DNA of 60,914 nucleotides. It comes from Syntrophobacteraceae bacterium. Lineage in GTDB: Bacteria > Desulfobacterota > Syntrophobacteria > Syntrophobacterales > Syntrophobacteraceae. Positions 14 to 60,914 of this stretch are shown here, piece after piece. The DNA lies in NCBI GenBank assembly GCA_031292215.1, contig JARLHO010000137.1, forward strand, positions 1-60,914. The letters are read 5' to 3'. The translations under genes were made by a program, and so were the position numbers. Within the stretch, counting starts at the first letter, position 1; each line of letters opens with the position of its first letter. Under the pieces are notes generated by a model that saw only the letters and a program-made list of their open reading frames with translations, was not told the origin of the DNA and did no database searches.

Positions 14-85
14 TGTTCTTCGTGGTTGGCTACTGACCCGGAGGTCTGAACTGAGAGCAATACCGGGATTCAACCACGAAGAACA
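14..85. repeat. 15-bp perfect inverted repeat in the left-edge intergenic region
   Basis: Positions 14-28 (TGTTCTTCGTGGTTG) and 71-85 are exact reverse complements separated by 42 bases. The right arm continues into a purine-rich stretch, and another partial copy (CTTCGTGGT) lies near 113-121. The rest of 1-309 holds no gene I can support. Bases 225-300 include a degenerate copy of the C-rich repeat seen elsewhere in the window. The element may be a dispersed intergenic repeat or the remains of a terminator. Confidence 0.6.
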
Positions 86-309
86 CAAAGAGCGCGAAGG
101 GAAAAATGGGGCTTCGTGGTGAACGCTTACGTTCTGTCATGGAATACTAAAACTCGTAGGAGAACCAACAGACTGATAAATATACGATTTAAGCGCTACA
201 GATGCTCCGACATTTAAACAAGCCTCTCCCACCCCTTGGCAAAAAGGGGCGTAAAAATCTTAACACGGCAAGATCACAGGTTATTACTCCCCAAAAAACA
301 AGGGGGCTG

Positions 310-2619
310 TTAGTCCCCATCGCCCAAGGCGATTGTCACCACCGCAGGGGCCGCATCGATGTGGAGTTCGGTTCCGCGCCAGAAGACTTGCCGTGGCGCC
401 GACACTATTTTGCCGGGCGCGCCGGAGTAGGGCCACGGCAAGATGAACCCTCCCGGCGGAAGGGCCGCGGAATCTATCCTCAGGCGCAGAAGGTTTTTTT
501 CCCGGCGAAGCGAATAGCTAAGACGCCCCCAGGGGGTGGTAAGGCCGGAAAGGGCTGCGCCTTGGCCGGAAAGCCAGGCGGTCGGGATTCCTGCTCCCAG
601 CACCATGGCCGAATCCGCGGGCCGTCTGTAGGCAAACATATCCAGAACCGAACCGATGAAGTCCGAGGCTATCCACGCGTGGGGCATGTCGCCGATAAAG
701 CCCGGTTTTTTGCTGTCGCGGCGCACCGCCTCGGCCCAGCCGTTCCAGGCCGCGGGGCGGCGGCCTTTTCGGAAAAAATCGAGAAGCGGTTGTACGCGGT
801 TTCGCCAACCCAGGCGAATAAATGCGCCCACCATGCGCAGTTCGTATGGCGTATAGGCTTTCCGAGGGGCCGAAAAATTATGCCAGTAGCGCTCGAAGGT
901 GCCTTCGAGTATCCGTTTGGGCAGGTATGCGCTTTCGCCGGTAGGAGAGAGCGCGATCGTTGAGGAGGTGGGATCGAAGTCGCCAAGTTCGGCACATCCC
1001 GGCACATAGTCGATTTTGTGGAGAGCTGCCGACCGGCGAATCGAAGCGAGGAGGTCGTTTCGAAATTGGTCGCGGGAGGCGGCTATGCGCCTGTCCTGGT
1101 CGGGTTTACCCAGTTTTCGGGCAAGATATCCCGCATCGTCATAGCCCTTAAGCGACCAGAAGTCGTCCCAGTACGAATGCATCGGCTTTTTGCAGTAGCC
1201 TTCGTGGCTGATCGAGGCGGGCATGAGGCCAAAGTCGGAGGGTTCGGCAGGCTTTTTTTCCTTTGCGCGAAGCCGGTCCATATAGTCGATGGCAAGTAAT
1301 ACGTGCGGCCACAGCGCTTCGAGTCGGGCTTTGTCATGGGTAAAGCGGTAGAGTTCTGCGACAGTGAAGACGAACTCCCCCTGGCTGTCGTTTTCGGGAG
1401 TTGGGTCAGCGCCGCGAGCGTCCACGCAGCAGGGCGCCTTGCCGCTTTGAAACTGGAAAGGCGCATACCAGTCGATGAAGTCGCGCACTATGGCCTGTTT
1501 ATCCATCCGCAACAGGGCCTCCGACATCATCGCCCCGTCCCGGATCCAGGTGCGGGCATAGGAGCGCGTGCCGGGCTGAAGAGCTGGACCGTTTCGAGAC
1601 ATCAGTATAGAGGCAAGCGAGGTGCGAAGGGTGTCCACAATCCAGCGGGCGGACGGCGGCACTCGAATCCCCACGGTATTTAGGACGGCGCGCCATTTCG
1701 AAGCGACGCTGCGCCTCTTTCGGGCCGTCCAGTTTTCGGGGTCCCGCGTTGCGGCCTCGGGGAGCTCGGTAGCTCCGGACAAGGGAAAGAGCAGATGGAT
1801 CGTTTGGCTTTGGCGCGGCCCAAGAGATAAGCCAAACCGCATGGCGCCGGAAGCGCGGCCGGAGGGGTCGCTCGCCGGCCGGGCGGAGGCGTGCCCCGGA
1901 GCCCGCGCTGAAATGATGTCCCCGGAAGTAAAGGCTGAGGCGATGAATTCGTCGGGCTTTTCGAGCGCAAAAAAGCCAACTTTATCGTTTACCCTTACCG
2001 CGCCGCCCCTCCACTCGATCCTGTAGATGGGGCTAAAACCCCCTTTCGTATTTAGAAATTGAGTGGGCGGGTCTACCTGGAAGGGGCGAACCGCCAGCAC
2101 CAGGGTGGCCCTGCCGGCATGGTCGCCCCGGTTTGTAAGCGTATAGTCCACGTGCAGGCGCGAGTCGGCAGTATCTCCCGAGGCAAATGCGTGAATGCTC
2201 AGCCTCCAGCCCGGCGCTTTCCAGGTAACCTTGGGTATCGGCAGGTATCCGTCTTCGAGCTCCTGCGTGGAAACCACGTCTGCCCATGTCAAAAGGCGCC
2301 CGTCTGCTGCCAGGAACGGCTCGAGCGAAAATCCGCCCCGGGCCGGCTCGACCGAGCCGTCGGAAGAGACTAGCGCCGAATGGGCCCCGCCTCCATCGAC
2401 GCCGACAAGTGTCCAGTACGCCTGCTCGCCGGAAAAACCCCGGGGATAGAGGCCGCGCCGCGAACTTTTGGCCAGCCGCTCAAAGGTGCGGTCGGGATTT
2501 TGCCGGAAAGACTTCCCGCAAAGTCCCGGGGCCGGCCATTGCAAAATGAGCGCGACCATCGCCGGAAGAGCGGCCGGCGCAGTAATTTTGCGCTTCCCGC
2601 CTTTTACATTTACATGCAT
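310..2619 (-). CDS. Six-hairpin (alpha/alpha)6 glycosidase-like protein
   Basis: A 769-residue protein. It starts with a basic stretch and a hydrophobic segment (about residues 10-35), which suggests export or a membrane anchor. An N-terminal beta-rich half is followed by a helical half carrying the TWIRDGAMMSEALLRM stretch (about residues 360-375), which resembles the amylo-alpha-1,6-glucosidase / six-hairpin glycosidase superfamily. Aromatic and acidic patches such as SYWDDFWSLKGYDD later in the barrel are typical of a sugar cleft. It lies 39 bases after the last sugar-permease gene on the same strand, so it is probably the last gene of the importer operon and trims the imported or periplasmic oligosaccharide. 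Substrate and catalytic residues cannot be fixed from sequence alone; it could also be a phosphorylase-like or non-catalytic relative. Confidence 0.7.
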   Translation of the reverse strand: MHVNVKGGKRKITAPAALPAMVALILQWPAPGLCGKSFRQNPDRTFERLAKSSRRGLYPRGFSGEQAYWTLVGVDGGGAHSALVSSDGSVEPARGGFSLEPFLAADGRLLTWADVVSTQELEDGYLPIPKVTWKAPGWRLSIHAFASGDTADSRLHVDYTLTNRGDHAGRATLVLAVRPFQVDPPTQFLNTKGGFSPIYRIEWRGGAVRVNDKVGFFALEKPDEFIASAFTSGDIISARAPGHASARPASDPSGRASGAMRFGLSLGPRQSQTIHLLFPLSGATELPEAATRDPENWTARKRRSVASKWRAVLNTVGIRVPPSARWIVDTLRTSLASILMSRNGPALQPGTRSYARTWIRDGAMMSEALLRMDKQAIVRDFIDWYAPFQFQSGKAPCCVDARGADPTPENDSQGEFVFTVAELYRFTHDKARLEALWPHVLLAIDYMDRLRAKEKKPAEPSDFGLMPASISHEGYCKKPMHSYWDDFWSLKGYDDAGYLARKLGKPDQDRRIAASRDQFRNDLLASIRRSAALHKIDYVPGCAELGDFDPTSSTIALSPTGESAYLPKRILEGTFERYWHNFSAPRKAYTPYELRMVGAFIRLGWRNRVQPLLDFFRKGRRPAAWNGWAEAVRRDSKKPGFIGDMPHAWIASDFIGSVLDMFAYRRPADSAMVLGAGIPTAWLSGQGAALSGLTTPWGRLSYSLRREKNLLRLRIDSAALPPGGFILPWPYSGAPGKIVSAPRQVFWRGTELHIDAAPAVVTIALGDGD

Positions 2620-47064: not shown

Positions 47065-48048
47065 ATGTTCAGTCACATAAGCGCCGGGCGATTTGTATTG
47101 AGGCTCAAGGCGCTCGAGGAGATTCACCTTCCGGCGTATGAAGGTTCCACCCTGCGCGGAGGGTTCGGACACGCGCTAAAGGGGGTGTGCTGCGCCCTGA
47201 AGCGCCAGGAATGCTCATCTTGCATGCTCCGCGACCGGTGTGTCTATCTTTACCTGTTCGAAACCCCTCCCCCGCCGGATACGGAGATGATGCGCCTTTA
47301 CCCTTCGGCGCCGCACCCTTTCGTAATCGAGCCTCCACTGAATGGGCGCCGGGTCATCGCAGCGGGAGAGCCTTTCGAGTTCGGGCTGGTGGTCATAGGG
47401 CGCGCTCTCGACTATTTCCCCTATTTTGTCTACGCCTTCATGCGTCTTGGCGAGATGGGGCTTGGCGGGGGGCGAAGAGATGGAGCGGCGGGGACGGCAA
47501 GGGGCGGGAAATTCAGCCTCGAGGATGTCTGCGCCATGTCGGCTGTGGGACTCGTCTCGATCTACGACAGCGGCGGCCAGTCTCTAAAAAGACCTGCGCC
47601 GTGGCCGGACCAGGGGGCGATTGGCGCGAGGTGCGAAACGTTCGGGGCTACGCGGCGGGTCACCGTGTGTTTCAGGACCCCGACAAGGATCAAATCCGAT
47701 GGGCGGTTAACGGATGGACCGGAATTTCACCACCTGACAAGATCTCTTTTAAGGCGTCTTTCAGCCCTTTCCTATTTCCACTGCGCAAAGAGGCTGGAGC
47801 TGGATTTTAAGGGACTGATCGAAAGGGCCGGGAGTATAGAGCGGGTTTCCTCCGAGCTGAAATGGCACGACTGGGAGAGGTATTCGGGCAGGCAGAAGCA
47901 AAGGATGACTCTTGGCGGATTTGTGGGAGAGGCGACGTTTGCAGGGGATTTCGGAGATTTTTTGCCGATGCTCGCCTGGGGCGAGGTGGTGCATGTTGGG
48001 AAGGCGGCAAGTTTTGGACTGGGGAGATACATGCTCGGACAGGATTAG
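47065..48048 (+). CDS. cas6: Cas6-type pre-crRNA endoribonuclease (RAMP)
   Basis: 327 residues; AGGAGG lies 11 bases before the ATG. LPAYEGSTLRGGFGHALKGVCC is the N-terminal RAMP strand-helix of the PF10040-like Cas6 group. CALKRQECSSCMLRDRCVYLYLFE is the Cys cluster often seen in Cas6 of type III loci. The C-terminal part RQKQRMTLGGFVGEATFAGDF and VHVGKAASFGLGRYML holds the glycine-rich loop and the last strand. It cuts repeat RNA to leave the 8-base 5-prime handle. The gene is 44 bases before cas10. Confidence 0.88.
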   Translation: MFSHISAGRFVLRLKALEEIHLPAYEGSTLRGGFGHALKGVCCALKRQECSSCMLRDRCVYLYLFETPPPPDTEMMRLYPSAPHPFVIEPPLNGRRVIAAGEPFEFGLVVIGRALDYFPYFVYAFMRLGEMGLGGGRRDGAAGTARGGKFSLEDVCAMSAVGLVSIYDSGGQSLKRPAPWPDQGAIGARCETFGATRRVTVCFRTPTRIKSDGRLTDGPEFHHLTRSLLRRLSALSYFHCAKRLELDFKGLIERAGSIERVSSELKWHDWERYSGRQKQRMTLGGFVGEATFAGDFGDFLPMLAWGEVVHVGKAASFGLGRYMLGQD

Positions 48049-48092: not shown

Positions 48093-50501
48093 ATGAATGA
48101 GCGTGAGGAACTGCAACTGGGTTCCCTGCTACACGATATCGGGAAAATAGCGCAGCGCGCGAAATCCGTGAAGTTGACCCGGGAAGACCGGAGTCTTGAA
48201 TCCACATGCTGCCCGGTCTACAGGGACCGTTATTCCCATACCCACGTTCTCTATACTCAGAAGGTTTTTGGCGAGTTGTGGCCCGATTTTTTCCCCCTTG
48301 CCGAGATTATCGCCACTTTTCATCATCGCCCGGACACCTGCACCAACAGCAGGCTTGCCAAGATGGTGGCCCTTGCCGACCGCCTTTCGTCGGGCGAAAG
48401 ACACGGCCTGGAGGAAAGAGACGATTCGGGAGATCCTCGCACGGCGCGACTCCACTGCCTCTTTAGCTCGCTGAGTCTTGAGCCCGTTTGCGAAAAGCCG
48501 GCCTATTTCCCGCTTCTGCCTCTTTCTTCGAATTTAGAGGACCATTTCCCCGGGGACGCGGCCTCGCTGGAGGACAAAGAAAGCTATGACCGGCTGTGGG
48601 AGGAAATGTCCGGCGAACTCGGACGGCTCGATCCGGGGAGCAAATTTTCTAGCTTTTATACCCGGGTCCATTATCTACTCGAGCGATTCGCTCTGTTTAT
48701 CCCTTCAGCCGCCTACAAGGATAGAGCGGACATTTCCCTTTATCACCATTGCAAGGCAACTGCGGCGATCGCCACCTGCCTGTACGATCGCGGCCTGGAA
48801 GAGAAGGAATTGGACGGACTGCTGGCTGCGCTTCGCGGCGCCGACGCGGGGCGTCTTTTGGAGAGGCCGGCCATGTGGCTGATCGGCGGCGACATCTCGG
48901 GCATCCAGGACTTCATTTATTCGATTGCGTCGGCAAAAGCGCTAAAGGGGCTAAGAGGGCGTTCCGCATACCTTCAGTTTCTGGCCGAGGCCGTGTTGAC
49001 CCGGCTTCTAGACGACTTCCATCTTCCCTGCAGCAACCTGATATATTCCGGCGGAGGACATTTTTATCTGCTCGCGCCTCGCACGCCGGAGTCGGAAGGT
49101 ATCCTGGAAGCGTGCCAGAAATATGTCGACGAGGTGCTGGTCCGCTCCCATCGGGGACAGCTTGCGCTCTGCATCGCGCGGGAGCCTCTTCGCTATTGCG
49201 ATTTTATCTGCTCCGGGCGACAGGAGGCAGGCGCCCACAAGAGCACTCCATGCGCGCCGGGCGGATTTTCAGGGGCATGGGCCCGTCTTGGGGCCAAATT
49301 GGCCCGGAGCAAGCGGAGGAAATTCAGGAGCCTTTTTACGGGCGGGGATGGGCTACGCGAGGTGCTTGGGCCTTTTCCCGCCTCCGGGGTAGAGAAGGTC
49401 TGCGATTTATGCGGGGAACCCCTGCCGGGCGAGAGCGAAGCCGCGCGCTGCGATTTATGCGGCAGCTTCGAAAATCTGGCGACTCGTCTAGCACGGGCCG
49501 AGTCCCTGAGCCTTGAGGTCGCGGCCCCGAACCCCCTGGCCACTCCCATCGGGTCCTGCGAGGAGGTGCTCGAGGCCATCGGGTTAAAGCTGAGATTATT
49601 TCGCCCCGGCGAGACAAGTACCGAGGCTTACCTGCTCAATCGAACGGATTTTATTTTAAAAGAGCGGGCGTACCTGGGATTTCGCTTTTTGGCCAGCCAC
49701 ACTCCGATGCGCTCCGGCGAGGTGGTTACGCTGGAAGGACTGGCCGAAGAGGCGACGGGCATAAAAAAATGGGGGGTGGTACGGGCCGATGTGGACAATC
49801 TCGGGCGCGTCTTTAGAGACGGACTTAGGGGAGGCGACCAGAGCATATCCCGCGTGAGCATGCTTAGCCATTTGATCTCCTTATACTTTTCGGCGCATGT
49901 GGAGAGCCTGGCAAGGCGGCCTCCTTACGGTTCGAGGATTTCCATAATTTATTCGGGGGGAGACGACCTTTTCGCTCTCGGGAGCTGGTCTGTGCTTAAG
50001 CCGTTCGCCGAGGAGGTAAACGGTGGTTTCAACGCTTTCACGGCGGGGAGGCTGACCCTTTCGGCCGGCGTATGCCTGGCTCCGGGCCCTGGCTACCCGG
50101 TCGGCCAGGCGGGTAAACTTGCCGGTGAAGCAGAGCATCTTGCCAAGGTGTGCGGAAGGAACAGGTTCGCCATATTTGACGAAGCGATAGGCTGGGAGGA
50201 GCTTCGGGAACTGCAAAAAATTCAGGATGCCCTCGTGGGACTGATAGGCGAGAAGGCGCCGCGGTCGCTTTTTTCATTGCTTTACCAGGCTTTTGACGCC
50301 CAGGAGGAAGCTAAAAAGGGAGAGACTCGGCTTTTTCCTGTGTGGCGACTTCTCTATGCCTTGCGGCGGTTTGTGGAGCGAGAAAAAAAGCTTAGCGGGG
50401 GCATTATGGCCCTTGAGCAATTAATTGTTAAAAACCTTTGGCTGCCGGAGCATGCCGTCATTGCAACGCGGCTTGCCGACTATCTAACGCGGCAGGGATA
50501 G
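48093..50501 (+). CDS. csm1: Cas10/Csm1, HD nuclease and cyclic-oligoadenylate synthase of type III-A
   Basis: 802 residues with AAAGGAGCCGG upstream. The HD motif is His14-Asp15 (LGSLLHDIGKIAQRA). Palm 1 contains MWLIGGDISGIQDFIYSI. A zinc-binding part VCDLCGEPLPGE...CDLCGSF has two Cys-x2-Cys pairs (about 435-460). The second palm has the synthase motif GGDD at residues 622-625 (YSGGDDLFALGSW). Both active sites are complete, so both ssDNA cleavage and cA_n synthesis are expected. This is the large subunit that binds the crRNA 5-prime end. Confidence 0.96.
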   Translation: MNEREELQLGSLLHDIGKIAQRAKSVKLTREDRSLESTCCPVYRDRYSHTHVLYTQKVFGELWPDFFPLAEIIATFHHRPDTCTNSRLAKMVALADRLSSGERHGLEERDDSGDPRTARLHCLFSSLSLEPVCEKPAYFPLLPLSSNLEDHFPGDAASLEDKESYDRLWEEMSGELGRLDPGSKFSSFYTRVHYLLERFALFIPSAAYKDRADISLYHHCKATAAIATCLYDRGLEEKELDGLLAALRGADAGRLLERPAMWLIGGDISGIQDFIYSIASAKALKGLRGRSAYLQFLAEAVLTRLLDDFHLPCSNLIYSGGGHFYLLAPRTPESEGILEACQKYVDEVLVRSHRGQLALCIAREPLRYCDFICSGRQEAGAHKSTPCAPGGFSGAWARLGAKLARSKRRKFRSLFTGGDGLREVLGPFPASGVEKVCDLCGEPLPGESEAARCDLCGSFENLATRLARAESLSLEVAAPNPLATPIGSCEEVLEAIGLKLRLFRPGETSTEAYLLNRTDFILKERAYLGFRFLASHTPMRSGEVVTLEGLAEEATGIKKWGVVRADVDNLGRVFRDGLRGGDQSISRVSMLSHLISLYFSAHVESLARRPPYGSRISIIYSGGDDLFALGSWSVLKPFAEEVNGGFNAFTAGRLTLSAGVCLAPGPGYPVGQAGKLAGEAEHLAKVCGRNRFAIFDEAIGWEELRELQKIQDALVGLIGEKAPRSLFSLLYQAFDAQEEAKKGETRLFPVWRLLYALRRFVEREKKLSGGIMALEQLIVKNLWLPEHAVIATRLADYLTRQG

Positions 50502-50514
50502 AGAGGAGAAACCA

Positions 50515-50925
50515 ATGGCGTATGGAGGCCGAAATCCGGGGCAGGAGGCAGGCGGTTTCGATGTTCAGGAGGCGGATCTGAAGAGCATCGTTATCGGCGG
50601 CGACGCCGTAAAGCTAAACGATGTCGCCAGTAAACTCGGCAAATATTGTGTGACCGGGGGGGAGAAGGAAAAGGTATCAGCTTCGCAAATAAGAGGCATT
50701 CTCGATCATTTGCAGCGGATGTACAAGTTTGACCCTAATGAACTCCAACTGCTTCGCCCCAAGCTTGCCTATGCGGCCGGAAGACACGGCGGGAAGGTAA
50801 ACGATCTGCAAAAGGTCGCGGATAAAGCTATCACCATGGTCGAAGCCGACAAGAAGCGATTTGAAAACTTTCGCAACTTTTTTGAAGCCATAGTCGCATA
50901 TCACCGCTTTCACGGCGGCAAATAG
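50515..50925 (+). CDS. csm2: Csm2 (type III-A small subunit)
   Basis: 136 residues, mostly helical. FDPNELQLLRPKLAYAAGRHG and VEADKKRFENFRNFFEAIVAYHRFHGGK are the conserved helices of Csm2. The first 30 residues are glycine- and glutamine-rich and disordered. It stacks along the Csm3 backbone. It follows csm1 by 13 bases with AGAGGAG as ribosome site. Confidence 0.94.
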   Translation: MAYGGRNPGQEAGGFDVQEADLKSIVIGGDAVKLNDVASKLGKYCVTGGEKEKVSASQIRGILDHLQRMYKFDPNELQLLRPKLAYAAGRHGGKVNDLQKVADKAITMVEADKKRFENFRNFFEAIVAYHRFHGGK

Positions 50926-50934
50926 GAGACCCGC

Positions 50935-51714
50935 ATGGGCAGACTGCTGGGGAAAGTTATCGTTACCGGAAACGTCAAGGCGCTAACAGGGATGAGGATC
51001 GGCGGAAGCAGCGGGGGGTTAAAAATTGGCGGGGTGGACCTCAACGTGATTACAGACCCCTTCGGAACGCCCTACATCCCCGGGTCGTCGCTAAAAGGGA
51101 AAACGAGATCGATCATGGAGCGCTACCACTCACGTACATTACATGGCGGCGTCCACCTGTGTCGAACCGACAGCGAATACAACGAGTGCCCGGTCTGCAG
51201 GGTCTGGGGCACGATGGCGGGCGCGCAGGCGATGACCGCATCCACCATCACCCGCCTGCTTGTCTCGGACGTCTTTCTCGACAAGGAGTCCATAAACCAG
51301 GAGATGAGGGATAACCTGGAGTTGCGCTGGACGGAGGTGAAGTTTGAAACGGCCATCAACCGTGTGACGGGCACGGCACTAAAGGGGAGCCTGCGCCAGA
51401 TCGAAAGGGTGCCGGCGGGGGCCGTTTTTAAAGATATGCATATGATTTTCAATGTTTTCGAGGATAAGGACAAAGACCTGCTAAAAGAGCTCTTCATTGC
51501 CCTCGAACTGCTGGAACACGATTATCTCGGCGGGATGGGGTCCCGCGGTTACGGGCGAGTGGGATTCGAGGACATGAGGGTGTTCTGGAACTCGCGCCGC
51601 GCCTACGAGACAGGAGACATCGCCCTTGAGCCAAGCCGCGCCGTCAACGGAGAAGCGGCGACCCCCCCGAGGCTGGTGCAGGATTTCGAAACGATCAAAA
51701 AAGGGCTGAGCTAA
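50935..51714 (+). CDS. csm3: Csm3 (Cas7-type backbone, target RNA nuclease)
   Basis: 259 residues. Asp35 in KIGGVDLNVITD is the residue that cleaves target RNA every six bases, and it is present. YIPGSSLKGKTRSIMERY is the glycine-rich Cas7 helix. CRTDSEYNECPVCRVWGT is the Cys-containing zinc loop. Several copies form the backbone on the crRNA. Ends at the start of csm4 with no gap. Confidence 0.96.
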   Translation: MGRLLGKVIVTGNVKALTGMRIGGSSGGLKIGGVDLNVITDPFGTPYIPGSSLKGKTRSIMERYHSRTLHGGVHLCRTDSEYNECPVCRVWGTMAGAQAMTASTITRLLVSDVFLDKESINQEMRDNLELRWTEVKFETAINRVTGTALKGSLRQIERVPAGAVFKDMHMIFNVFEDKDKDLLKELFIALELLEHDYLGGMGSRGYGRVGFEDMRVFWNSRRAYETGDIALEPSRAVNGEAATPPRLVQDFETIKKGLS

Positions 51715-52743
51715 ATGGAACTCGATCTGAAGGTGGTTGAGATTCGACTGCGGAGCGGGATGCACCTGGGGGAGCGCGAGGGCTGGCTCGAGGGAACGGG
51801 CGTCTTTCCCCTTTCGGACACGCTCTTTTCGGCCTTTTGCAACGGGTACCGGTTGCTCTATGGGGAGGAAGAACTCGATGCGCTGCTGCAGGCGTTTCTT
51901 GACGGGCCCCCCCCTTTCCGGCTTTCATCGGGATTCCCTAAATGGAAGGGTCTTTATTTTTTCCCGGCGCCCCTCAATCAGATCGCAGCGGAAAAGGATG
52001 TGAAAAATATCCGGTGGATCGAAAAGGCGGGCTGGGAAAGGTTGCTGAGGGGAGAGGCGATCGAAGAGGTCCTCAAGGCATCTTCGGTCCAGTATATCCC
52101 TAAACCGGGGCCGAATTGCCAGGCGAAAGAGACAGAGGAGCCACCCGAGCCCTGGAAAATCCTGGAGACGCCCCGGGTGGGTCTTGACCGGACAAACAAT
52201 CACCCCGGAGAGAGGTATTTTCAATTCGGGCAGGTCCATTTTTACCCGGACGCGTCTTATTTCTTCCTGGCCGATGTCGCTAGCGAGGACGTATGGGAAA
52301 GACTAAAGGCCGTGTGGCGGCTTTTGGCCGATGAAGGCATAGGGGGAGATCGCAGCGTGGGGAAGGGGCTCTACCACAGCCCTTCTTTCGCTGCCCTGCG
52401 CCTCAGTTTGCCCGACCGCGCCGAAAACCAGGCCCTTCTTTCTCTTTTTTACCCCAGTCCTTCCGAGACCGGAATCATTGGAGAGGGCTATTACGAGTTC
52501 ATCGAAAGGAAGGGCTACCTGTACTCTCCGGCGTCGCAGGGTCTTCGAAGAAACGCGGTGAGGCTGTTTAAAACCGGCTCGGTGTTCCCTTCGTCCCGCC
52601 CCCTCCGCGGGCGGCTTATGGATGTAACTCCGGAAATATTTACCCGGCATCGGGTTTACAGGTACGGGATAGCGCTAAGCGTCCCATGCCGGTTAAGGGG
52701 AGAAAGCCATGCGGGAAGTCATGCAGAAAGCCATGTGGGTTGA
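51715..52743 (+). CDS. csm4: Csm4 (Cas5-type subunit that binds the crRNA handle)
   Basis: 342 residues. The start LDLKVVEIRLRSGMHLGEREGW is the first RAMP strand. Later GIGGDRSVGKGLYH is the glycine-rich loop of Csm4. The C-terminal tail reads GESHAGSHAESHVG, made by three 12-base tandem units, and runs 35 bases into csm5. It caps the complex with Cas10. The tail appears to be an add-on to the conserved part. Confidence 0.94.
   Translation: MELDLKVVEIRLRSGMHLGEREGWLEGTGVFPLSDTLFSAFCNGYRLLYGEEELDALLQAFLDGPPPFRLSSGFPKWKGLYFFPAPLNQIAAEKDVKNIRWIEKAGWERLLRGEAIEEVLKASSVQYIPKPGPNCQAKETEEPPEPWKILETPRVGLDRTNNHPGERYFQFGQVHFYPDASYFFLADVASEDVWERLKAVWRLLADEGIGGDRSVGKGLYHSPSFAALRLSLPDRAENQALLSLFYPSPSETGIIGEGYYEFIERKGYLYSPASQGLRRNAVRLFKTGSVFPSSRPLRGRLMDVTPEIFTRHRVYRYGIALSVPCRLRGESHAGSHAESHVG
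52703..52738 (+). repeat. Three 12-base tandem units over the csm4/csm5 overlap
   Basis: AAAGCCATGCGG, GAAGTCATGCAG and AAAGCCATGTGG follow each other. Each unit brings an ATG in the csm5 frame (52709, 52721, 52733) and a Ser-His in the csm4 frame. The slippage has lengthened both proteins at once. Confidence 0.8.
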
Positions 52744-54076
52744 TTTAGAGGTCCTCACCCCGATACACATTGGTAATGGAACCGATATAAGTCCCATCGA
52801 GTACTGGATCGATGAAGGCTTTTCCAGGGTAAACATGGGGAGGCTTTTCGAAGACCCCGACTTCGGGCCGCACCAGGACGCCTTCATCGGCGGGGCCGCC
52901 TCCCAGAGGTATCTCGGCGCCCATCTGCCCACAAAATTATTGAGCCGGCACATCAAATATCGGGCGCCCATGTCTCCCGAGGCCCGTAAATACCTCCTGC
53001 GACACCCGATACAGGTAAAAGAGCAGATCAAATCTGCCGGACGGGTCTTTATTCCGGGCAGCTCCATCAAGGGGAGCCTGCTTTCGGCGCTCATCAGCAG
53101 CACGCTGGAGGAAAAGTACAGGGCGGAGGAGTCAAGATACTCCCTGGAACGGTTAATCGGAGATCCTCGCAGCTTCTCCAACCTGCTCGATGTCACGATT
53201 GGCAGCCTGGGCAGCCAGGGCAGCCAGGGTAATGGAGACAAAAACCGATTTCACAGGTGGCTAGACGTTTCGGATTCGAGTCTTCTCAGCCCGGAACAGG
53301 CGTTGCGCATTTATTACTCGGAGGTCGTGGGGGCTCGGAGAGGCGGTCTTCCAATTCTTTTCGAGGGGCTGAGTCCAGGGAGGACGTTTACTTTCTGTTT
53401 GAATACGCCGTCCGAATCCCGTTTCAACCTTTCGGAGATGCTCAAGATATCGGATGGTTTCTATAAAGAGGTGTGGACGAAAAGCGGGATAAAAGAGGCC
53501 CCCCCGGAAAATGGTTATCTCCTGCGGATCGGGCAGGGATCATCGGCATGGGCCACTTCCCTGCTGATATTTGCCGAGTCGACCGGTGCGAGGTACGAAG
53601 CAGTCCAGCGCCCCAAGACACGCAAGCTCGTCGACGCCACCATTGCGATGGGCTGGGCGGTGCTTACCCGGTCGGAGCGCTCAAGCCTTGCGCAAATACC
53701 TCCTGGAGTCGAAACAGGCAGCGACCGGGAAGGTCAAAGCATGGGTGCAACGGCGGCGCGCCGAGGTTATCCCGCTGCGGAGTCCCTGCCCGAACCCGTC
53801 AAAGCCTTCGAACCCCTCGAACCCCTCTTAGACACGATTTCCACGCCTGAAACGCAGATGTGGCGAAGCGTAAATCTAACCTGGGAGCCCGGCAGCCGGA
53901 CTGTTGTGGCGAAAACGGCTGAAGGAAAGGCGTTTACGAACGATAAAGCCATCATACCGGAACCGATTTATGACCGGTTATGCGTGAAAAGAAAAGTTGT
54001 CAAGGCCGATATAGAGGTCGAGCCGGTCGGCTCCAGGAACTTCAGGATTGTCAGTATCGGATTGGAGTCAGTCTAG
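52709..54076 (+). CDS. csm5: Csm5 (Cas7-type subunit at the crRNA 3-prime end)
   Basis: 455 residues. GGGGAG lies 8 bases before the ATG at 52709; two further in-frame ATGs follow at 12-base spacing. WVDLEVLTPIHIGNGTDISPIEYWID is the conserved start and VFIPGSSIKGSLLSALISS the glycine-rich loop. A short repeat tract GSLGSQGSQGNGD lies near residue 170. A proline-rich stretch (about 355-385) precedes the last domain. It caps the far end of the Csm complex. Confidence 0.94.
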   Translation: MREVMQKAMWVDLEVLTPIHIGNGTDISPIEYWIDEGFSRVNMGRLFEDPDFGPHQDAFIGGAASQRYLGAHLPTKLLSRHIKYRAPMSPEARKYLLRHPIQVKEQIKSAGRVFIPGSSIKGSLLSALISSTLEEKYRAEESRYSLERLIGDPRSFSNLLDVTIGSLGSQGSQGNGDKNRFHRWLDVSDSSLLSPEQALRIYYSEVVGARRGGLPILFEGLSPGRTFTFCLNTPSESRFNLSEMLKISDGFYKEVWTKSGIKEAPPENGYLLRIGQGSSAWATSLLIFAESTGARYEAVQRPKTRKLVDATIAMGWAVLTRSERSSLAQIPPGVETGSDREGQSMGATAARRGYPAAESLPEPVKAFEPLEPLLDTISTPETQMWRSVNLTWEPGSRTVVAKTAEGKAFTNDKAIIPEPIYDRLCVKRKVVKADIEVEPVGSRNFRIVSIGLESV

Positions 54077-54151: not shown

Positions 54152-54496
54152 TCAGCGCAGATCGTAATGGAGCTTCAAAGCGCTGTCCACCTTCTCCATG
54201 ATATCGGGCGGAAGCCGCCCGATTTTCTTCAGAAGGCGGACTTTATCCACCGCCCTCGTCTGGTTGGGCATCACTTTCGAGTTTAGTTCAAGTCCTCCGG
54301 ATTGAGCGGGGACCTCGACCTCAAATGAATAAATCCGGGACACGCTGGATGTTACGGGAGCAATGGAAACGATGGGAGAGTGAGTGTTGTTGATATCATT
54401 TGAAACCACAACCGCAGGGCGAACCTTGGTTGCCTCGGCCCCGACGGCGGGGTCGAAATTCACCAGGAAGACGTCCCCTCGCCTAATCGAGGCCAT
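54152..54496 (-). CDS. MazF/PemK-type endoribonuclease toxin
   Basis: 114 residues from the ATG at 54496, placed by homology: IRRGDVFLVNFDPAVGAEATKVRPAVVVSND is the standard MazF start. The Arg in KVRPAVV and the Ser-Thr-type stretch PVTSSVSRIYSFEV are present, as is the C-terminal TRAVDKVRLLKKIG. It cuts mRNA when free of antitoxin. Its start overlaps the antitoxin end by 14 bases. The pair sits within the CRISPR locus on the opposite strand, between csm5 and csx20. Confidence 0.93.
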   Translation of the reverse strand: MASIRRGDVFLVNFDPAVGAEATKVRPAVVVSNDINNTHSPIVSIAPVTSSVSRIYSFEVEVPAQSGGLELNSKVMPNQTRAVDKVRLLKKIGRLPPDIMEKVDSALKLHYDLR

Positions 54497-54707
54497 CGCC
54501 CACAGCCCCTTCAAGTTCCCCGTTGATCCTGAAAATTTCGCGCGCGGCCGCTTCGTATTCGGCCGCAAGCGTGTGGTCCCGCTGCTCCTTAAGAGAACGC
54601 TCGACGGCCTCAGCGATAAACCGGCTTCTTTTCCCGGGGGAGACTTGCCGTGAAATCTCTTCGAGGAGGTAATCGGGAAGACTGATGTTGATACGAACGG
54701 TTTTCAT
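54483..54707 (-). CDS. Ribbon-helix-helix antitoxin for the MazF-type toxin
   Basis: 74 residues from the ATG at 54707 (AGAGGTG upstream; the GTG at 54713 has no ribosome site). KTVRINISLPDYLLEEISRQV is a ribbon-helix-helix DNA-binding strand and helix, followed by KRSRFIAEAVERSLKEQ. The acidic C-terminus (EIFRINGELEGAVGDGLD) probably wraps the toxin. It should repress its own promoter in 54708-54791. Confidence 0.92.
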   Translation of the reverse strand: MKTVRINISLPDYLLEEISRQVSPGKRSRFIAEAVERSLKEQRDHTLAAEYEAAAREIFRINGELEGAVGDGLD

Positions 54708-54791
54708 TGTCACCTCTTAGTGTGTCTTAATGTGGATAATAACAACACACAACCCGGGATGTCAACGCCGGATGAACGACGTGGCATGTGA

Positions 54792-55196
54792 ATGGACCAA
54801 GGTATGGCGGACACTCTTTTTCTGATATTCAACCACCAGCTCACCAGGGAACAGGAAGCCGATGCGTCGGCCGCGCTGGGGGTAAAGCGGATTATCGAGC
54901 TGCCCGCCGATTTGCAGGAGCTTTGGGGGAATATTCCGCCCGATCTGCCGGCGCTCAACGACTATCTCTGGCCTTTGCGGGAGTGGCTGCTTTCGCGGGC
55001 TGCTCCGGGCGATTACGTCCTGATCCAGGGAGATTTCGGGGCGTGCTGCATCCTGGTTTCTTTCTCCATCGCCAAGGGTTACCTCCCGATTTATTCCACC
55101 ACACGGCGTGTGGCGAGCGAAGAGATGCAAAGTGACGGGCGCATCAGGCTTGTCCACCATTTCGAACACCGGATATTTAGAAGATACGGATTGTAA
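54792..55196 (+). CDS. csx20: CRISPR-associated protein Csx20
   Basis: 134 residues (an in-frame ATG at 54804 matches the usual family start better, but has AAGG too close; 54792 is kept with doubt). DTLFLIFNHQLTREQEADASAALGV, ELPADLQELWGNIPPDLPALNDYLWPL and GDYVLIQGDFGACCILVSFSIAKG followed by PIYSTTRR match Csx20, a small CARF-like Rossmann protein of type III loci. Csx20 proteins are proposed to bind or break down cyclic oligoadenylate. It lies 12 bases ahead of the Card1/Can2-type effector gene, which suggests signal and off-switch are made together. Confidence 0.83.
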   Translation: MDQGMADTLFLIFNHQLTREQEADASAALGVKRIIELPADLQELWGNIPPDLPALNDYLWPLREWLLSRAAPGDYVLIQGDFGACCILVSFSIAKGYLPIYSTTRRVASEEMQSDGRIRLVHHFEHRIFRRYGL

Positions 55197-55208: not shown

Positions 55209-56426
55209 ATGGCCAGGTGCCTTGTTTGCCTTGTGAGCGACCAAACGATTCCGAATATACTCGTCGCCGCCGACCTCAAACCTGATTATCTGCTGCTTAT
55301 CAGCACTCCCGGCATGGAGAAGAAGGCGAAGTCGGGCGCCATTCTGGAGACTCTCGCTTTGCACGGCGCAGATTATTCGGCTCGCCACGAGGTAATAGAG
55401 GTGGCGGAGAACTCCATTTCGGATTTCAGAAAGAAAATAGGCGACTGGATTGAGCACACCGACCTGGAGTGGGAATATGTCGTCAATCTCACTTGCGGTA
55501 CGAAGCTCATGTCGATTGCCGCCTATGATTTTTTCAAGAGCAATTTCGGAAGCGAAATGGTCTACGTACCCATACCGAAAAACGAGTTCGTCACGCCCTT
55601 TCCGCTACGCAGGCAGACAGCCTCGATCAGTCTCGCAGAGCGTTTGTCGGTAGAAGAATATCTTGCCGCTTACGGTTTCAAGGTTATCAGTAAACACAAC
55701 CTCGACAAGCATCATCGGCAGGCTAAAGCACGGGAAGAAACCACCAGTTTTATTTTCGATCATTACCAGGACCTGTTCCCCCTTCTGCGCCGGTTCAGGG
55801 AACTAATCCACCCGATAGAAAAAAAGCTTACCTCGACGAAAGGCTATCTTTTGAGAGCCGCGCATGCCACCGACAACGGACATCAAACGAAATTGCTTGA
55901 GCAGCTTGGTTTTGAATATTCGGGGACCGAGGTCAGTAAAACGATTTTTAAAGCCGACTGGGAGTATTTGCGAGGCGGGTGGCTCGAAGAATACCTTTTT
56001 TTACGCATAAAGGAAGCGGCGCCTTCGGGAATGCATGCCGACATACTGTTAAACGTTCACTGCAGGGACCCGCAGGGTAATGAGAATGAGTTCGATGTGG
56101 TATTCACCTTCGAGAATACTTTACACATTGTCGAGTGCAAATCGCTTGAAGCGGCGGAGGGCGACGAGCAGCGCATCGGGGGAACGATAAACGATTTTCT
56201 CTACAAGCTCGGAGCGCTACGGCGACATTTCGGGCTTACCCCGAAGGCATTTCTTGCGACTACTTCCAGTGACGTGCTGTACGGAGACGGCGCCCTGAAA
56301 ACGAAATTGGTAGAACGCGGCAGACAGTTTTCGACCGAGATCATCCCGTTAAAAATAGAAAGAGACCCTACGGGTTACTTCAAGAAAATGGTATTCGAGA
56401 GGGCCACGAAGCCTCAGGAATATTGA
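55209..56426 (+). CDS. Card1/Can2-type CARF nuclease (DUF1887 family), cyclic-oligoadenylate-activated effector
   Basis: 405 residues; AAAGGAGAAGAGCC precedes the ATG. The CARF half (1-150) has NLTCGTKLMSIAAYDFF as ligand-binding loop and helix. The C-terminal PD-(D/E)XK nuclease has Asp296 (ENEFDVVFTFENTL) and Glu309-x-Lys311 (HIVECKS), so its active site is complete. Card1 and Can2 are activated by cA4 made by Cas10 and cut ssRNA and/or DNA without sequence choice. It takes the place of Csm6, which is absent from the window. Confidence 0.9.
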   Translation: MARCLVCLVSDQTIPNILVAADLKPDYLLLISTPGMEKKAKSGAILETLALHGADYSARHEVIEVAENSISDFRKKIGDWIEHTDLEWEYVVNLTCGTKLMSIAAYDFFKSNFGSEMVYVPIPKNEFVTPFPLRRQTASISLAERLSVEEYLAAYGFKVISKHNLDKHHRQAKAREETTSFIFDHYQDLFPLLRRFRELIHPIEKKLTSTKGYLLRAAHATDNGHQTKLLEQLGFEYSGTEVSKTIFKADWEYLRGGWLEEYLFLRIKEAAPSGMHADILLNVHCRDPQGNENEFDVVFTFENTLHIVECKSLEAAEGDEQRIGGTINDFLYKLGALRRHFGLTPKAFLATTSSDVLYGDGALKTKLVERGRQFSTEIIPLKIERDPTGYFKKMVFERATKPQEY

Positions 56427-56529: not shown

Positions 56530-58428
56530 ATGGCATTTGTCAATGGGATAAGGAAGATGAACGACCACGACAGCTTTGTACCCACCAGTCGAAAAACGGA
56601 GAGCGCATCCCTGGAGCTTGCCCGTTCCCACCTCGATTCGGGCGAGGAGGAAAAGGCGCGCGAACTCGCCATGAGGGCGTGCAGTAAACGGCCAGGCGAT
56701 CCTGAAAACCTGTGTGGGTGGGCCGGGATTTTCGAGGAGCTCGGCATGGCCGCACGGGCGCTCGAATGGTACAAGGCCGCCGTTCGCTCCGTGCCAGAGG
56801 ACTGCGGGGCAATGTTAAAGCTGGCCGTGCTCCTGGGTGAAACCGGCCACGACGAGGAGTCGATCCATTATTTGAAAAAGATCCTCGGGAAGAGCCCTGA
56901 CCACGTCGAAGCCCGCCGGTTGCTGGGAGAGCACTATCGCTCGCTCGGATTCGCCGGACAGGCGGAGGCGACAGGACCGGCCTCTATTGCGGCGGCGCCC
57001 CACGGACCCGGAGAGCGGGAGATCGCAGCCAGGCGCTTTCCCGTAGCCGTCTCAAGCCGCGATACCGAGACTTTCCTTCGTCTGTTTTCCGGAAAGGAAC
57101 TTGGCTATGCGGTTCAGCGGGCGCAGGTCCCCGATGGCTCGATTATTTTCGATTTCCATGGAGAGTCGCTATCTTCCGACCTTGTTCTTTCCCACCTGCG
57201 AGGAGATATAACCCTGGCCGCCTACCCGCTTCGAACCGACAACACGGCCCGATACGGCGCCGTGTCGATCAGGGCGAGGGGCAGCGTCGCCAGGGCAAAC
57301 CGAAAGAACCCGAGTGTCGCGGCGCTACTGGCCGAAAGAGCCAGGGCGCACCTGCTTCTTATGGTAAATTACGCAGCCCGGGCGGGCATACCTGCCTACC
57401 CCGAGGACTGCGGCGGGGTGTGCCTGCGGCTGTGGTTTTTTTTCGATGGATTTTACCATTTTCTAAAGATCAGAAAATTCGTAATGGAACTGCTGGAGCA
57501 TGGACCTGTCCCCGACGGCCGGCTGGCCGTGGAGCCGGTGCTTGCGACTAAGCCAACCGGCCTTGGGTGGGAGGAGAACGCGGTGCTGCTGCCGCTTGGC
57601 ATCCACCGCGCAACCCTTCGGCGCTGTTTTTTCCTCGACCCGGAGGGCGGACACGAAGCGGAGCAGATCAAGTACCTGCGAAGGATCAGGGCTCTTGGGC
57701 CCCCAGAGAACCCGGGTGGCGCGCGCGGCCCGGGGACGGCCTGCCGCAGGCTTTCAGGAGAGAAAGAAAGGATGGCGGAGGAGGCGGGTTTCGGCCATGG
57801 AGATCGCGTGTGGGCAAAATCGAGGTGCGAACCGACAATCGGTTCGCCGCAGGCGATGAAGATTTTCAAGGGCTGTGGCGTTATCGCCGAACTAGTCGAA
57901 AGGGCGCTCCGTGGGCGAAATCTTCGCCACGAGGAAAAGCTCGCCCTGTTCCACTCTTTGGGCATGGTTGAAGACGGCCCCGGGGTCATCCACGATACCC
58001 TCGCCAACTGCCCCGACTACGACTGCGAAAAGGTCGCCAGGCAGACGGCGCGTCTCAGGCCGAACCCGATCAGTTGCCTCAAGCTCCGGAAGCTCCTGCC
58101 CGAGATAGCGTCCTCGGTTGAGTGCGGGTGCGTTTTCGACATGAGGGGTGGGAAATACCCCTCCCCCGTCATGCATGTGAGCCCCCATCTCGTGCCAACC
58201 TCGCTGGAGATGACATTTTCGTCGGTCCTGCCGTTAAAGAGGGTCGCCGAGCGATATTTGAGCCTCAAGCGGCATCAGGAAGAGACCGCCACCGCGTTGG
58301 CAAGGCTCGAAGGGCTCCTTGAGCGGGGATTTCGCGTTAAGGGGCTTGCGAGCCTCAAGGTCGGCAGGGTCAGGCTCGCAAGAGTCGAAGCCGGGGAAAA
58401 ATCAAGCTGGGAGGTCTCGCCTTCGTAG
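56530..58428 (+). CDS. TPR-primase protein of the CRISPR-associated primase-polymerase type, catalytic residues degenerate
   Basis: 632 residues. Residues 25-150 are three to four TPR units (ELARSHLDSGEEEKARELAM, ALEWYKAAVRSVPED, SIHYLKKILGKSPDHVEARR). Residues 180-340 resemble the archaeo-eukaryotic primase fold: ITLAAYPLRTDNTARYGAVS, then the helix and CGGVCLRLWFFFDGF. In active members the strand after ARY carries Asp-x-Asp; here it is Ser246-Ile-Arg248. The following motif normally has His before Leu-Trp; here it is Arg300. Residues 455-560 resemble the PriL-like C-terminal domain, with CPDYDCEKV, NPISCLKLRKLLP and CGCVFD as Cys ligands. It lies 29 bases before cas1. A polymerase role looks lost, a binding role likely. 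Confidence 0.82.
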   Translation: MAFVNGIRKMNDHDSFVPTSRKTESASLELARSHLDSGEEEKARELAMRACSKRPGDPENLCGWAGIFEELGMAARALEWYKAAVRSVPEDCGAMLKLAVLLGETGHDEESIHYLKKILGKSPDHVEARRLLGEHYRSLGFAGQAEATGPASIAAAPHGPGEREIAARRFPVAVSSRDTETFLRLFSGKELGYAVQRAQVPDGSIIFDFHGESLSSDLVLSHLRGDITLAAYPLRTDNTARYGAVSIRARGSVARANRKNPSVAALLAERARAHLLLMVNYAARAGIPAYPEDCGGVCLRLWFFFDGFYHFLKIRKFVMELLEHGPVPDGRLAVEPVLATKPTGLGWEENAVLLPLGIHRATLRRCFFLDPEGGHEAEQIKYLRRIRALGPPENPGGARGPGTACRRLSGEKERMAEEAGFGHGDRVWAKSRCEPTIGSPQAMKIFKGCGVIAELVERALRGRNLRHEEKLALFHSLGMVEDGPGVIHDTLANCPDYDCEKVARQTARLRPNPISCLKLRKLLPEIASSVECGCVFDMRGGKYPSPVMHVSPHLVPTSLEMTFSSVLPLKRVAERYLSLKRHQEETATALARLEGLLERGFRVKGLASLKVGRVRLARVEAGEKSSWEVSPS

Positions 58429-58457: not shown

Positions 58458-59567
58458 ATGTCCTTTGCTTATGTGATGGAACAAAACTCAACCGTTGGGC
58501 TGGAGAGCGAACGGCTGGTAGTGAAGAAAGACCGGGCCGTTCTGCACAGCCTTCTTTTGTTCAAGCTGGAGCAACTCGTGCTGTTCGGGAACGTGCTTTT
58601 GACCCCGGCTGCCGTTTCGGCCCTTCTGCGCAGGGAGATAGACACGGTTTTCCTGAGCCGGAGCGGAGCTTACCGAGGGAGGCTCCAGCCCCCGCTCGGC
58701 AAGAACATCAGCCTGCGGCGCGAACAGTTCCGGAAGTTGCAGGAGGGTGATTTTTGCCTGAGCGCGGCAAATTCCATCGTCTGCGGCAAAATCGCCAACT
58801 CCAGGACCATCCTGCTAAGGCTAAACCGCAACCGGGACGGTCTCGGCCTGGAAGACAATATCCTCAGCCTCAGGCACATGGGGCAAAAAGCCGCCGCAGC
58901 GGCGGGACTGGAGACGCTCAGGGGCTTTGAGGGACGCAGCGCGGTGGTTTATTTCGAAGGTTTTTCCAAGGGGTTTCTGGCCGAGGGCGTCACCTTTCGA
59001 AGGCGGGTGCGGCGCCCGCCCACCGACCCGGTAAACGCACTATTGAGCCTCGGGTACACGCTCCTGTTCAACAGCGTTATGGCGGCCGTCTGCATGGCGG
59101 GTTTCGATCCCTACCTCGGCTGCCTGCACACCGTCGAGTATGGGCGCCCTTCCCTTGCTCTCGACCTCATGGAGGAGTGGCGGGCGCTTGTCGTCGACAG
59201 CCTTGTTCTTAGCCTTTTCAATTTAAGGACCCTCACACTCGACGATTTCGAACTAAGACCGCTCGGCGGGGAGGATAGCGCGGATGATGTCGGGGATGAT
59301 GTCGGGGATCATTCGATCGCCGCCCCTCCCGGCAGTGATCCCCACAAAGGAAAAGAGACCCGGCGCCCCCCGACTCAGGTAAAGCTTACGGCCGACGGGT
59401 ACCGGAAATTCATAACGAATTTCGAGCGGAAAATGGGCGAAAAGATCCAGTATGGCCCGACGGGTCAACAGCTAAGTTATCGGGATTGCATCCGGGAGCA
59501 GGTTAGACATTTCGCGAGGTACGTTCGCGGCGAGGATGACTCCTATCGGCCGATCCATGCGAGGTAG
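58458..59567 (+). CDS. cas1: Cas1 integrase
   Basis: 369 residues. Catalytic residues are Glu158 (GFEGRSAVVYF), His224 (CLHTVEYGRPSLALDLMEEWR) and Asp236/Glu239, all present. An acidic tract EDSADDVGDDVGDHS with 12-base tandem units and a polar linker (about residues 274-300) is inserted before QVKLTADGYRKFITNFERKM; this is longer than usual. It integrates spacers with Cas2. Its end overlaps the open frame ahead of the first cas2 gene. Confidence 0.96.
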   Translation: MSFAYVMEQNSTVGLESERLVVKKDRAVLHSLLLFKLEQLVLFGNVLLTPAAVSALLRREIDTVFLSRSGAYRGRLQPPLGKNISLRREQFRKLQEGDFCLSAANSIVCGKIANSRTILLRLNRNRDGLGLEDNILSLRHMGQKAAAAAGLETLRGFEGRSAVVYFEGFSKGFLAEGVTFRRRVRRPPTDPVNALLSLGYTLLFNSVMAAVCMAGFDPYLGCLHTVEYGRPSLALDLMEEWRALVVDSLVLSLFNLRTLTLDDFELRPLGGEDSADDVGDDVGDHSIAAPPGSDPHKGKETRRPPTQVKLTADGYRKFITNFERKMGEKIQYGPTGQQLSYRDCIREQVRHFARYVRGEDDSYRPIHAR

Positions 59568-59640: not shown

Positions 59641-59916
59641 ATGTACATGATGGTTTCCTACGATATAGTCAGGGACGCAACGAGGGGCAGGGTAATGCGA
59701 TTTCTCAAAGACTTCGGACAGCGGGTGCAGCTTAGCGTGTTCGAGTGCGACCTGGATGAGGAGAAATACCGGGAAATGAAGCGCGGGGTGGAGGAACTGA
59801 TCGACAAAAGGAAAGACAGCGTTCGCTATTACAGGCTTTGCCGCCAATGCGTCGCCAGGGTCGTAGTATCGGGCTGGGGCGAAGGGCCTTCGGACAGCGA
59901 ATTCGAGATTGTCTAG
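59641..59916 (+). CDS. cas2: Cas2, first copy
   Basis: 91 residues from the ATG at 59641 (GAGGAG about 10 bases upstream); the frame extends upstream to 59536, but that part overlaps cas1. MYMMVSYDIVRDATRGRVMRFLKDFGQRVQLSVFECDLDEEKY is the ferredoxin-like Cas2 core with the first-strand Asp. RYYRLCRQCVARVVVSGW follows. It forms the dimer that holds the prespacer. A second cas2 begins 13 bases after it. Confidence 0.94.
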   Translation: MYMMVSYDIVRDATRGRVMRFLKDFGQRVQLSVFECDLDEEKYREMKRGVEELIDKRKDSVRYYRLCRQCVARVVVSGWGEGPSDSEFEIV

Positions 59917-59929
59917 ACGGGGTGGTGAA

Positions 59930-60223
59930 ATGACGGAGAGGGTGCACCACATTGTCGTCACCTACGACATCCATGACCGGCGCAGACTGGCCAGGGTGGC
60001 GAAAATATCGAAAGACTTCGGCGGACGCGTTCTGATGAGCGTTTTCGAATGCTCGCTTACGCGATCCGAATTGGACAGGTTCAAAGACCGGATCGACGCC
60101 GAGATTGATCACATGGAAGACAGCGTGAGGTTTTATTTTGTGTGTGAAAAATGCCGGCGGCTGGTCGAGTCCTCGGGGGCTGGGTCTGCATTTTTTGTCG
60201 AGGAAGAGATTATCGTGGGTTAA
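59930..60223 (+). CDS. cas2: Cas2, second copy
   Basis: 97 residues from the ATG at 59930 (GGGGTGG upstream). RVHHIVVTYDIHDRRRLARVAKISKDFGGRVLMSVFECSLTRSELDRF is again a Cas2 core, with the strand-1 Asp. RFYFVCEKCRRLVESSG matches the other copy's RYYRLCRQCVARVVVSG. The two share the same scaffold and are tandem paralogues, but with many changes, so they diverged long ago or were acquired apart. They may make a heterodimer. The CRISPR leader begins just after it. Confidence 0.92.
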   Translation: MTERVHHIVVTYDIHDRRRLARVAKISKDFGGRVLMSVFECSLTRSELDRFKDRIDAEIDHMEDSVRFYFVCEKCRRLVESSGAGSAFFVEEEIIVG

Positions 60224-60446: not shown

Positions 60447-60914
60447 GACGGAATTGATGACCTGATGAAGAAGGGATTGCGACTCTGAAGTCATTACCTA
60501 TTACAACGAGTTCGTAGCGACGGAATTGATGACCTGATGAAGAAGGGATTGCGACGAGAACGCCCTTGGCAGTTCTTGTTATCAGTATTGGACGGAATTG
60601 ATGACCTGATGAAGAAGGGATTGCGACGTGTATAATGCCATTTGCTTTGTTTTTTGGATTGAGAGACGGAATTGATGACCTGATGAAGAAGGGATTGCGA
60701 CTCCACTTGTTTTGTCGTCTTCGTTGATTGTGCAGATTAGACGGAATTGATGACCTGATGAAGAAGGGATTGCGACAAAATTATTTCTGATTGTAAAGCT
60801 AAAACTCTCTGTAGACGGAATTGATGACCTGATGAAGAAGGGATTGCGACTGCAGAACCTCATAAGTCCCGTACTGGGCCAGTTTCTGACGGAATTGATG
60901 ACCTGATGAAGAAG
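60447..60914 (+). CRISPR. CRISPR array, seven 37-base repeats visible, running past the window end
   Basis: Repeats start at 60447, 60519, 60591, 60665, 60740, 60814 and 60888 (the last cut at the window edge after 27 bases). The six full repeats are identical, starting GACGGAATTGATG and ending AAGGGATTGCGAC. Spacers are 35, 35, 37, 38, 37 and 37 bases. The 3-prime end ATTGCGAC is shaped like the 8-base handle of type III crRNAs, so transcription should be from the leader at the left, on the plus strand. None of the spacers matches other parts of the window as far as I can see. Confidence 0.98.

Follow-up and report, generated by a model that had tools for sequence, protein, structure and literature searches.

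The window examined here (the whole stretch of 60,914 nucleotides of DNA, from a Syntrophobacteraceae bacterium) encodes a homologue of the CRISPR-associated primase-polymerases (CAPPs) in which the catalytic residues are lost from an AEP domain whose modelled fold persists. The protein belongs to a clade that shares this loss; we refer to its members as dead CAPPs and to relatives with intact motifs as active CAPPs. Dead CAPPs have conserved cleft residues of their own and are encoded beside cas1 and two cas2 genes. We suspect, with somewhat more confidence than doubt, that the protein is unable to make DNA by the Prim-Pol two-metal mechanism and has been retained as a non-catalytic component of a variant adaptation complex with Cas1, Cas2A and Cas2B, its cleft having been remodelled.

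The gene lies in a locus with the order Cas6, Cas10/Csm1, Csm2-5, Csx20, CARF-nuclease, CAPP, Cas1, two Cas2 and array (Table 1). With Cas10/Csm1 and Csm2-5 present, the locus is of type III-A; Csm1 (555 bits) and Csm5 (66.7 bits) were found by family search, and Csm2-4 were assigned by position and by jackhmmer groups across loci. Upstream of cas6 is a second ancillary CRISPR protein, of the Cas_NE0113 type (PF09623; 45525-46949, + strand), and a PemK/MazF-type toxin with a ribbon-helix-helix antitoxin-like gene (54152-54713, - strand) sits within the cas operon between csm5 and csx20.

Table 1. Features of the CRISPR locus and parts of the CAPP homologue (nucleotide positions in the window, or residues of the protein)
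Feature	Position	Strand	Remarks
Cas6	47065..48048	+	
Type III-A effector: Cas10/Csm1, Csm2, Csm3, Csm4, Csm5	48093..54076	+	Cas10 and Csm5 by family search
Csx20	54792..55196	+	family search
CARF-PD(D/E)xK ancillary effector (Card1-like)	55209..56426	+	
CAPP homologue, predicted non-catalytic	56530..58428	+	632 aa, with a C-terminal helix; family, alignment and fold evidence
TPR part of CAPP homologue	residues about 24-140		
AEP/Prim-Pol domain of CAPP homologue	residues about 176-392		contains S246, R248, R300, E335
Cys-rich CTD of CAPP homologue	residues about 440-560		C449, C516, C532, C534
Cas1	58458..59567	+	30 bp downstream of CAPP gene
Cas2A	59641..59916	+	probable start 59641; longer ORF opens at 59536
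Cas2B, second divergent Cas2	59930..60223	+	probable start 59930; longer ORF opens at 59909
CRISPR array	60447..60914	+	37-nt repeat GACGGAATTGATGACCTGATGAAGAAGGGATTGCGAC; six full repeats and one cut by the contig end

By descent and architecture the window protein is a CAPP homologue, and it is not classed as a catalytic Prim-Pol given that motifs I and II fail. It scores 246 bits against NCBIfam NF040561, 'CRISPR-associated primase-polymerase type A1' (curated cut-off, 200 bits), has AEP-TOTE and TPR matches in Pfam, and is matched by PADLOC PrimPol (3.5e-69). The score, the combination of TPR, AEP and Cys-containing CTD, and the placement of the gene in a CRISPR locus, in one operon with cas1 and cas2, are those of a type A1 CAPP; they bear out the architecture and the position beside cas1 that an earlier note had read from the DNA. 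That note had also described the Cys-rich C-terminal domain as intact, and its four cysteines show little or no variation among dead CAPPs. We take this domain to be PriCT-like. Where CART-CAPPs have an N-terminal reverse transcriptase (RT) domain, the window protein has TPR instead. The start of the gene is uncertain, with possible start codons at 56530 and 56557.

In an AlphaFold2 model built on an alignment of 22 dead-clade members, pLDDT lies at 82-94 for most blocks of the AEP domain and falls to 73 in the lowest; an AEP-only model made without an alignment reached pLDDT 36 and was left out of the analysis. The nearest solved fold to the modelled AEP domain is the Prim-Pol domain of MsCAPP (7nqe/7nqf; Z 25.0 over 210 residues, rmsd 2.7 Å to 7nqe), and the matches ranked after it cover the TPR part. 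Structure prediction, a check that the earlier note had proposed, thus places the domain within the Prim-Pol fold (Z about 25).

In a phmmer alignment with MsCAPP (PDB 7nqd), S246-I-R248 is paired with the motif I D-I-D, R300 with the motif II His that precedes I-W, and E335 with the motif III Glu. Measured against the superfamily motifs (I hhhDhD/E, II sxH and III hD/E, defined together with the role of E260 in PMC10345425), the window protein has neither I nor II and retains III as E335. The Asp-x-Asp of type A1 CAPPs (D177/D179 in MpCAPP) is S246/R248 here. An alignment of 77 CAPPs places S246, R248 and R300 in the same way, and the residues and numbering given by the earlier note (Ser246-Ile-Arg248 for Asp-x-Asp, Arg300 for His) were right. 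What that note overlooked, beside the tandem cas2 genes, is that K297, Q340, G349 and K353, all invariant in active members, are missing as well.

Across the 77-protein alignment, positions 246/248/300/335 are D/D/H/E in all 41 active-type CAPPs, and in all 36 dead-clade proteins other residues stand in place of both Asp and the His. Positions 246 and 248 are occupied by S, A, V, H, L, R and others in the dead clade; E335 is kept in most close relatives, and some members instead have T, S, R, Q, D, A, G or C. A check of the alignment for a substitute acidic pair, also suggested earlier, found none conserved clade-wide at the metal positions. One protein, at L097 (1525-3303, + strand), is the sole dead-clade member with E-x-E at 246/248, has Arg for the His, and possibly retains a metal site. 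In MpCAPP, the D177A/D179A mutation abolished both polymerase and primase activity (PMC8211822). Replacement of the motif II His by Arg/Lys or Gln occurs in other AEP families, and the acids of motifs I and III have been reported as nearly universal across PrimPol-PV1 families (PMC5862659). We strongly infer from these comparisons that the Prim-Pol domain of the window protein is non-catalytic.

The sample comprised 147 relatives and 395 genomes of the phylum, together with an alignment-based scan of 84,980 species, which yielded 77 usable CAPPs, none identical to another, that come from this phylum and from named relatives (41 active-type and 36 dead). A single-protein scan found no relatives in genome contigs, and the alignment-based scan recovered them; viral contigs scanned with the CAPP alignment gave no relative. 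In a tree built with the motif columns removed, the dead CAPPs form one clade (SH-aLRT 99), consistent with one change. The motif loss is most simply derived, because the motifs are present in the AEP outgroup as well as in active CAPPs. The clade is found in sulfate reducers and their relatives; its named taxa include Desulfobacca, Syntrophobacteraceae, Desulfarculaceae, Ca. Desulfofervidaceae and one Deferribacteres MAG, with Desulfoferrobacter suflitae DRH4 and Thermodesulfatator autotrophicus S606 as named strains.

For close dead pairs in which it could be computed, dN/dS is about 0.07-0.32 in the TPR, AEP and CTD parts. Since the loss is clade-wide, affects most nucleotide-site residues and is accompanied by dN/dS well below 1, it is not recent decay, and the same observations strongly support the earlier proposal that the window protein has lost DNA synthesis, as far as sequences can indicate. 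The residues invariant in active CAPPs alone and lost or variable in the dead clade are R195, W197, D246, D248, K297, H300, Q340, G349, N350, K353 and H359, of which N350 and H359 are still present in the window protein. The old nucleotide cleft instead has near-invariants of the dead clade, R300 (97%), T340 (94%), G344 (97%), W347 (94%) and E349 (97%), which give the signature T-x-x-x-G-x-x-W-x-E, and 33 columns are invariant among 22 diverse dead-clade members. Judged from these alignments, the dead clade has exchanged its former conserved site for a new one and has not drifted. R195, W197 and Y207, which may contact the template, are lost or variable too, and this speaks against a plain DNA-binding role of the kind that active CAPPs have. 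The equivalog model NF040561 does not tell dead from active CAPPs (it scores dead proteins at up to 576 bits, in L096), and dead proteins are therefore named 'primase-polymerase', which is probably a misnomer here.

All 29 dead loci with enough downstream sequence carry a pair of Cas2 genes, one from each of two lineages; the remaining seven are cut by contig ends. Among active loci, 35 have exactly one Cas2 and none has two. For loci with more than 2.5 kb downstream, the ratio of two Cas2 genes to one is 19:0 in dead and 0:22 in active loci (Fisher p 4e-12), a value that is descriptive because the linkage reflects one clade of shared ancestry and the 41 loci do not count as independent tests. 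Each dead locus has a single copy of Cas2B, and these copies make up one clade (99%); Cas2A groups with the single Cas2 of active loci in a tree that comes from a short alignment and has many unresolved forks. The gene order in dead loci is capp-cas1-cas2A-cas2B, or a rearranged one in the Thermodesulfatator group. The Cas1 active-site E, H and D are intact in every readable locus, including the window (E197/H263/D275, numbered by the stop-to-stop reading frame). When dead loci were searched for further genes that recur among them, nothing came up beyond known cas genes and antisense artefacts, and a partial literature search found no report of tandem or heterodimeric Cas2.

Tandem cas2 genes also follow cas1 where no CAPP was detected, at L147 (7115-7795, - strand) and L146 (9279-9969, + strand) in genomes G068 and G090, and the pairing of CAPP with two Cas2 genes is therefore not exclusive; about 2 kb upstream is masked in G090. 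In about 20 active loci (e.g., L104, L105, L109, L113, L118, L123 and L125), an open frame of roughly 450-660 aa directly upstream of the CAPP encodes a TPR-only protein, which was not seen beside dead CAPPs. This protein accounts for a second 'capp' match upstream of active CAPPs, which is not a CAPP. A CAPP-Cas1 fusion (L066 6607-8721; L090 7950-10064) was rejected as evidence for a functional link, given that it joins a dead CAPP in frame to mid-Cas1 and lacks the last part of the CTD as well as the first part of Cas1; it is probably a deletion or an assembly fault.

Arrays adjoining dead modules are long and diverse, with 84 repeats and 83 distinct spacers at L102, 79 and 75 at L083, 73 and 72 at L094, and 57 and 56 at L137. 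Spacers therefore seem to have been acquired successfully, provided that the arrays are not the work of a different integrase of the same cell. The latter could be so in the window genome, which has a second complete cas1-cas2 pair (G000:C130 12912-14176) and a weaker Cas1-like match (G000:C32 4527-5174). Replacement of the lost synthesis by an RT was rejected, as no RT was found near the dead locus in 18 genomes, or anywhere in the single-contig genomes G091 and G252. In 16 of 21 dead-CAPP genomes, including single-contig G024, G091 and G252, no AEP-TOTE-type domain was found other than that of the dead protein, which therefore does not need a catalytic partner of this type.

Residues 1-360 of MpCAPP bind Cas1, and a CAPP-Cas1-Cas2 complex is documented (PMC8211822). 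Together with the invariant genetic linkage, this interaction supports the suggestion in the earlier note that the window protein may help Cas1-Cas2. In the scenario that we favour, the dead CAPP would be a scaffold. Its TPR-AEP part would dock on Cas1, as the matching MpCAPP fragment does, and the remodelled cleft, the Cys-rich CTD or both may hold prespacer or integration-intermediate DNA, or a partner. Cas1 would carry out integration, gaps would be filled by host polymerases, and Cas2A is predicted to pair with Cas2B. A more speculative version, which we consider doubtful, would make this a novel type III adaptation machine, in which the Cas1 complex is built on a Cas2A-Cas2B heterodimer. 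The cleft would bind selectively to a single end of the prespacer or of an array intermediate, and protein parts, not DNA synthesis, would then set the asymmetry (which end goes in first, and spacer orientation).

The rebuilt cleft could also belong to a changed enzyme, in which R300, T340, W347, E349 and sometimes E335 would serve another phosphotransfer, nuclease or nucleotidyl reaction. The new near-invariant residues of the cleft include an Arg and a Glu, most close relatives keep E335, and L097 has Glu at both 246 and 248; E335 (in the window protein and many relatives) and the new near-invariant acid E349 might form a rearranged metal site, a point that also counts against the non-catalytic reading. 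We nevertheless think such an enzyme improbable, as no acid pair is conserved across the clade at the metal positions, where 246/248 and E335 vary. It is very unlikely that the protein is a redundant, drifting relic carried along with cas1 and cas2. A few clade members are broken, with frame breaks in L053, L099 and L103 and an in-frame deletion in L090, and the inactive domain of RT-CAPP fusions has been explained likewise (PMC10415136). However, purifying selection in all three domains, the invariant columns among diverse members and the clade-specific conservation that took the place of the old already disfavour a relic.

MpCAPP self-associates as homodimers (PMC8211822), and two genomes (G041 and G045) have an active CAPP in addition to the dead one, at a different locus, as might be expected if the dead protein were a regulatory or architectural partner in trans, the non-catalytic half of a heterodimer with an active CAPP or other AEP. 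This is already disfavoured by the window genome (96.9% complete) and single-contig G024, G091 and G252, which have the dead CAPP only, and we give it a very small probability. Smaller still, in our estimate, is the chance that the cleft or the CTD is a sensor that binds cyclic oligoadenylate or another nucleotide, linking type III signalling to adaptation. The cleft does descend from a nucleotide site, and type III loci with an intact-looking Cas10 GGDD and CARF effectors adjoin the protein; against this, the triphosphate-site residues K297, H300 and K353 are gone, the neighbouring CARF effectors already sense, and a domain search of the window protein found no CARF or SAVED domain. The cyclic-nucleotide binding raised in the earlier note gains no support.

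CAPPs have been proposed as suppliers of DNA synthesis for spacer acquisition. That a large clade keeps the protein without the chemistry, beside long diverse arrays, implies a second, non-synthetic CAPP job, which a comparison of dead with active members could test directly. A hetero-Cas2 integrase is one possibility suggested by the strict association with two Cas2 lineages. In a partial literature search, mostly of papers outside subscription, we came across no description of dead CAPPs as a free-standing clade, nor of the linkage of this clade to two Cas2 genes. The earlier note regarded a non-catalytic primase in an adaptation module as new, which holds in part. Inactive Prim-Pol domains are known in RT-CAPP fusions, where they were attributed to redundancy after RT capture (PMC10415136), and these fusions resemble the dead CAPPs as CRISPR adaptation proteins that retain a Prim-Pol domain without detectable synthesis (PMC10415136). 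In the fusions, however, the RT domain supplies synthesis, whereas the dead clade has an RT neither fused nor nearby, retains TPR and CTD, and has a rebuilt cleft.

The closest known relatives of the dead clade are the CAPP_A proteins of TPR type (MpCAPP/MsCAPP; NF040561), with which it shares the TPR-AEP-CTD order, Cys-rich CTD, type III locus, adjoining cas1 and Prim-Pol fold. It differs in the replaced Asp pair of motif I and His of motif II, the loss of the nucleotide-site Lys, Gln and Asn, its own invariant cleft residues, and two Cas2 genes instead of one. PriL/Pri2 and PriX are primase-related proteins that assist the catalytic PriS without catalysing; unlike these, dead CAPPs have no catalytic partner AEP detected in most of their genomes. 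The AEPs of TOTE conflict systems (PF22548 and PF22709) resemble the window protein in Pfam comparisons, where they give the AEP domain its highest-ranking match and the C-terminal helix a weak one. The helicase and nuclease parts that belong to TOTE systems were not observed at the window locus, and in contrast to the dead clade a TOTE-like relative (L068) keeps its catalytic residues.
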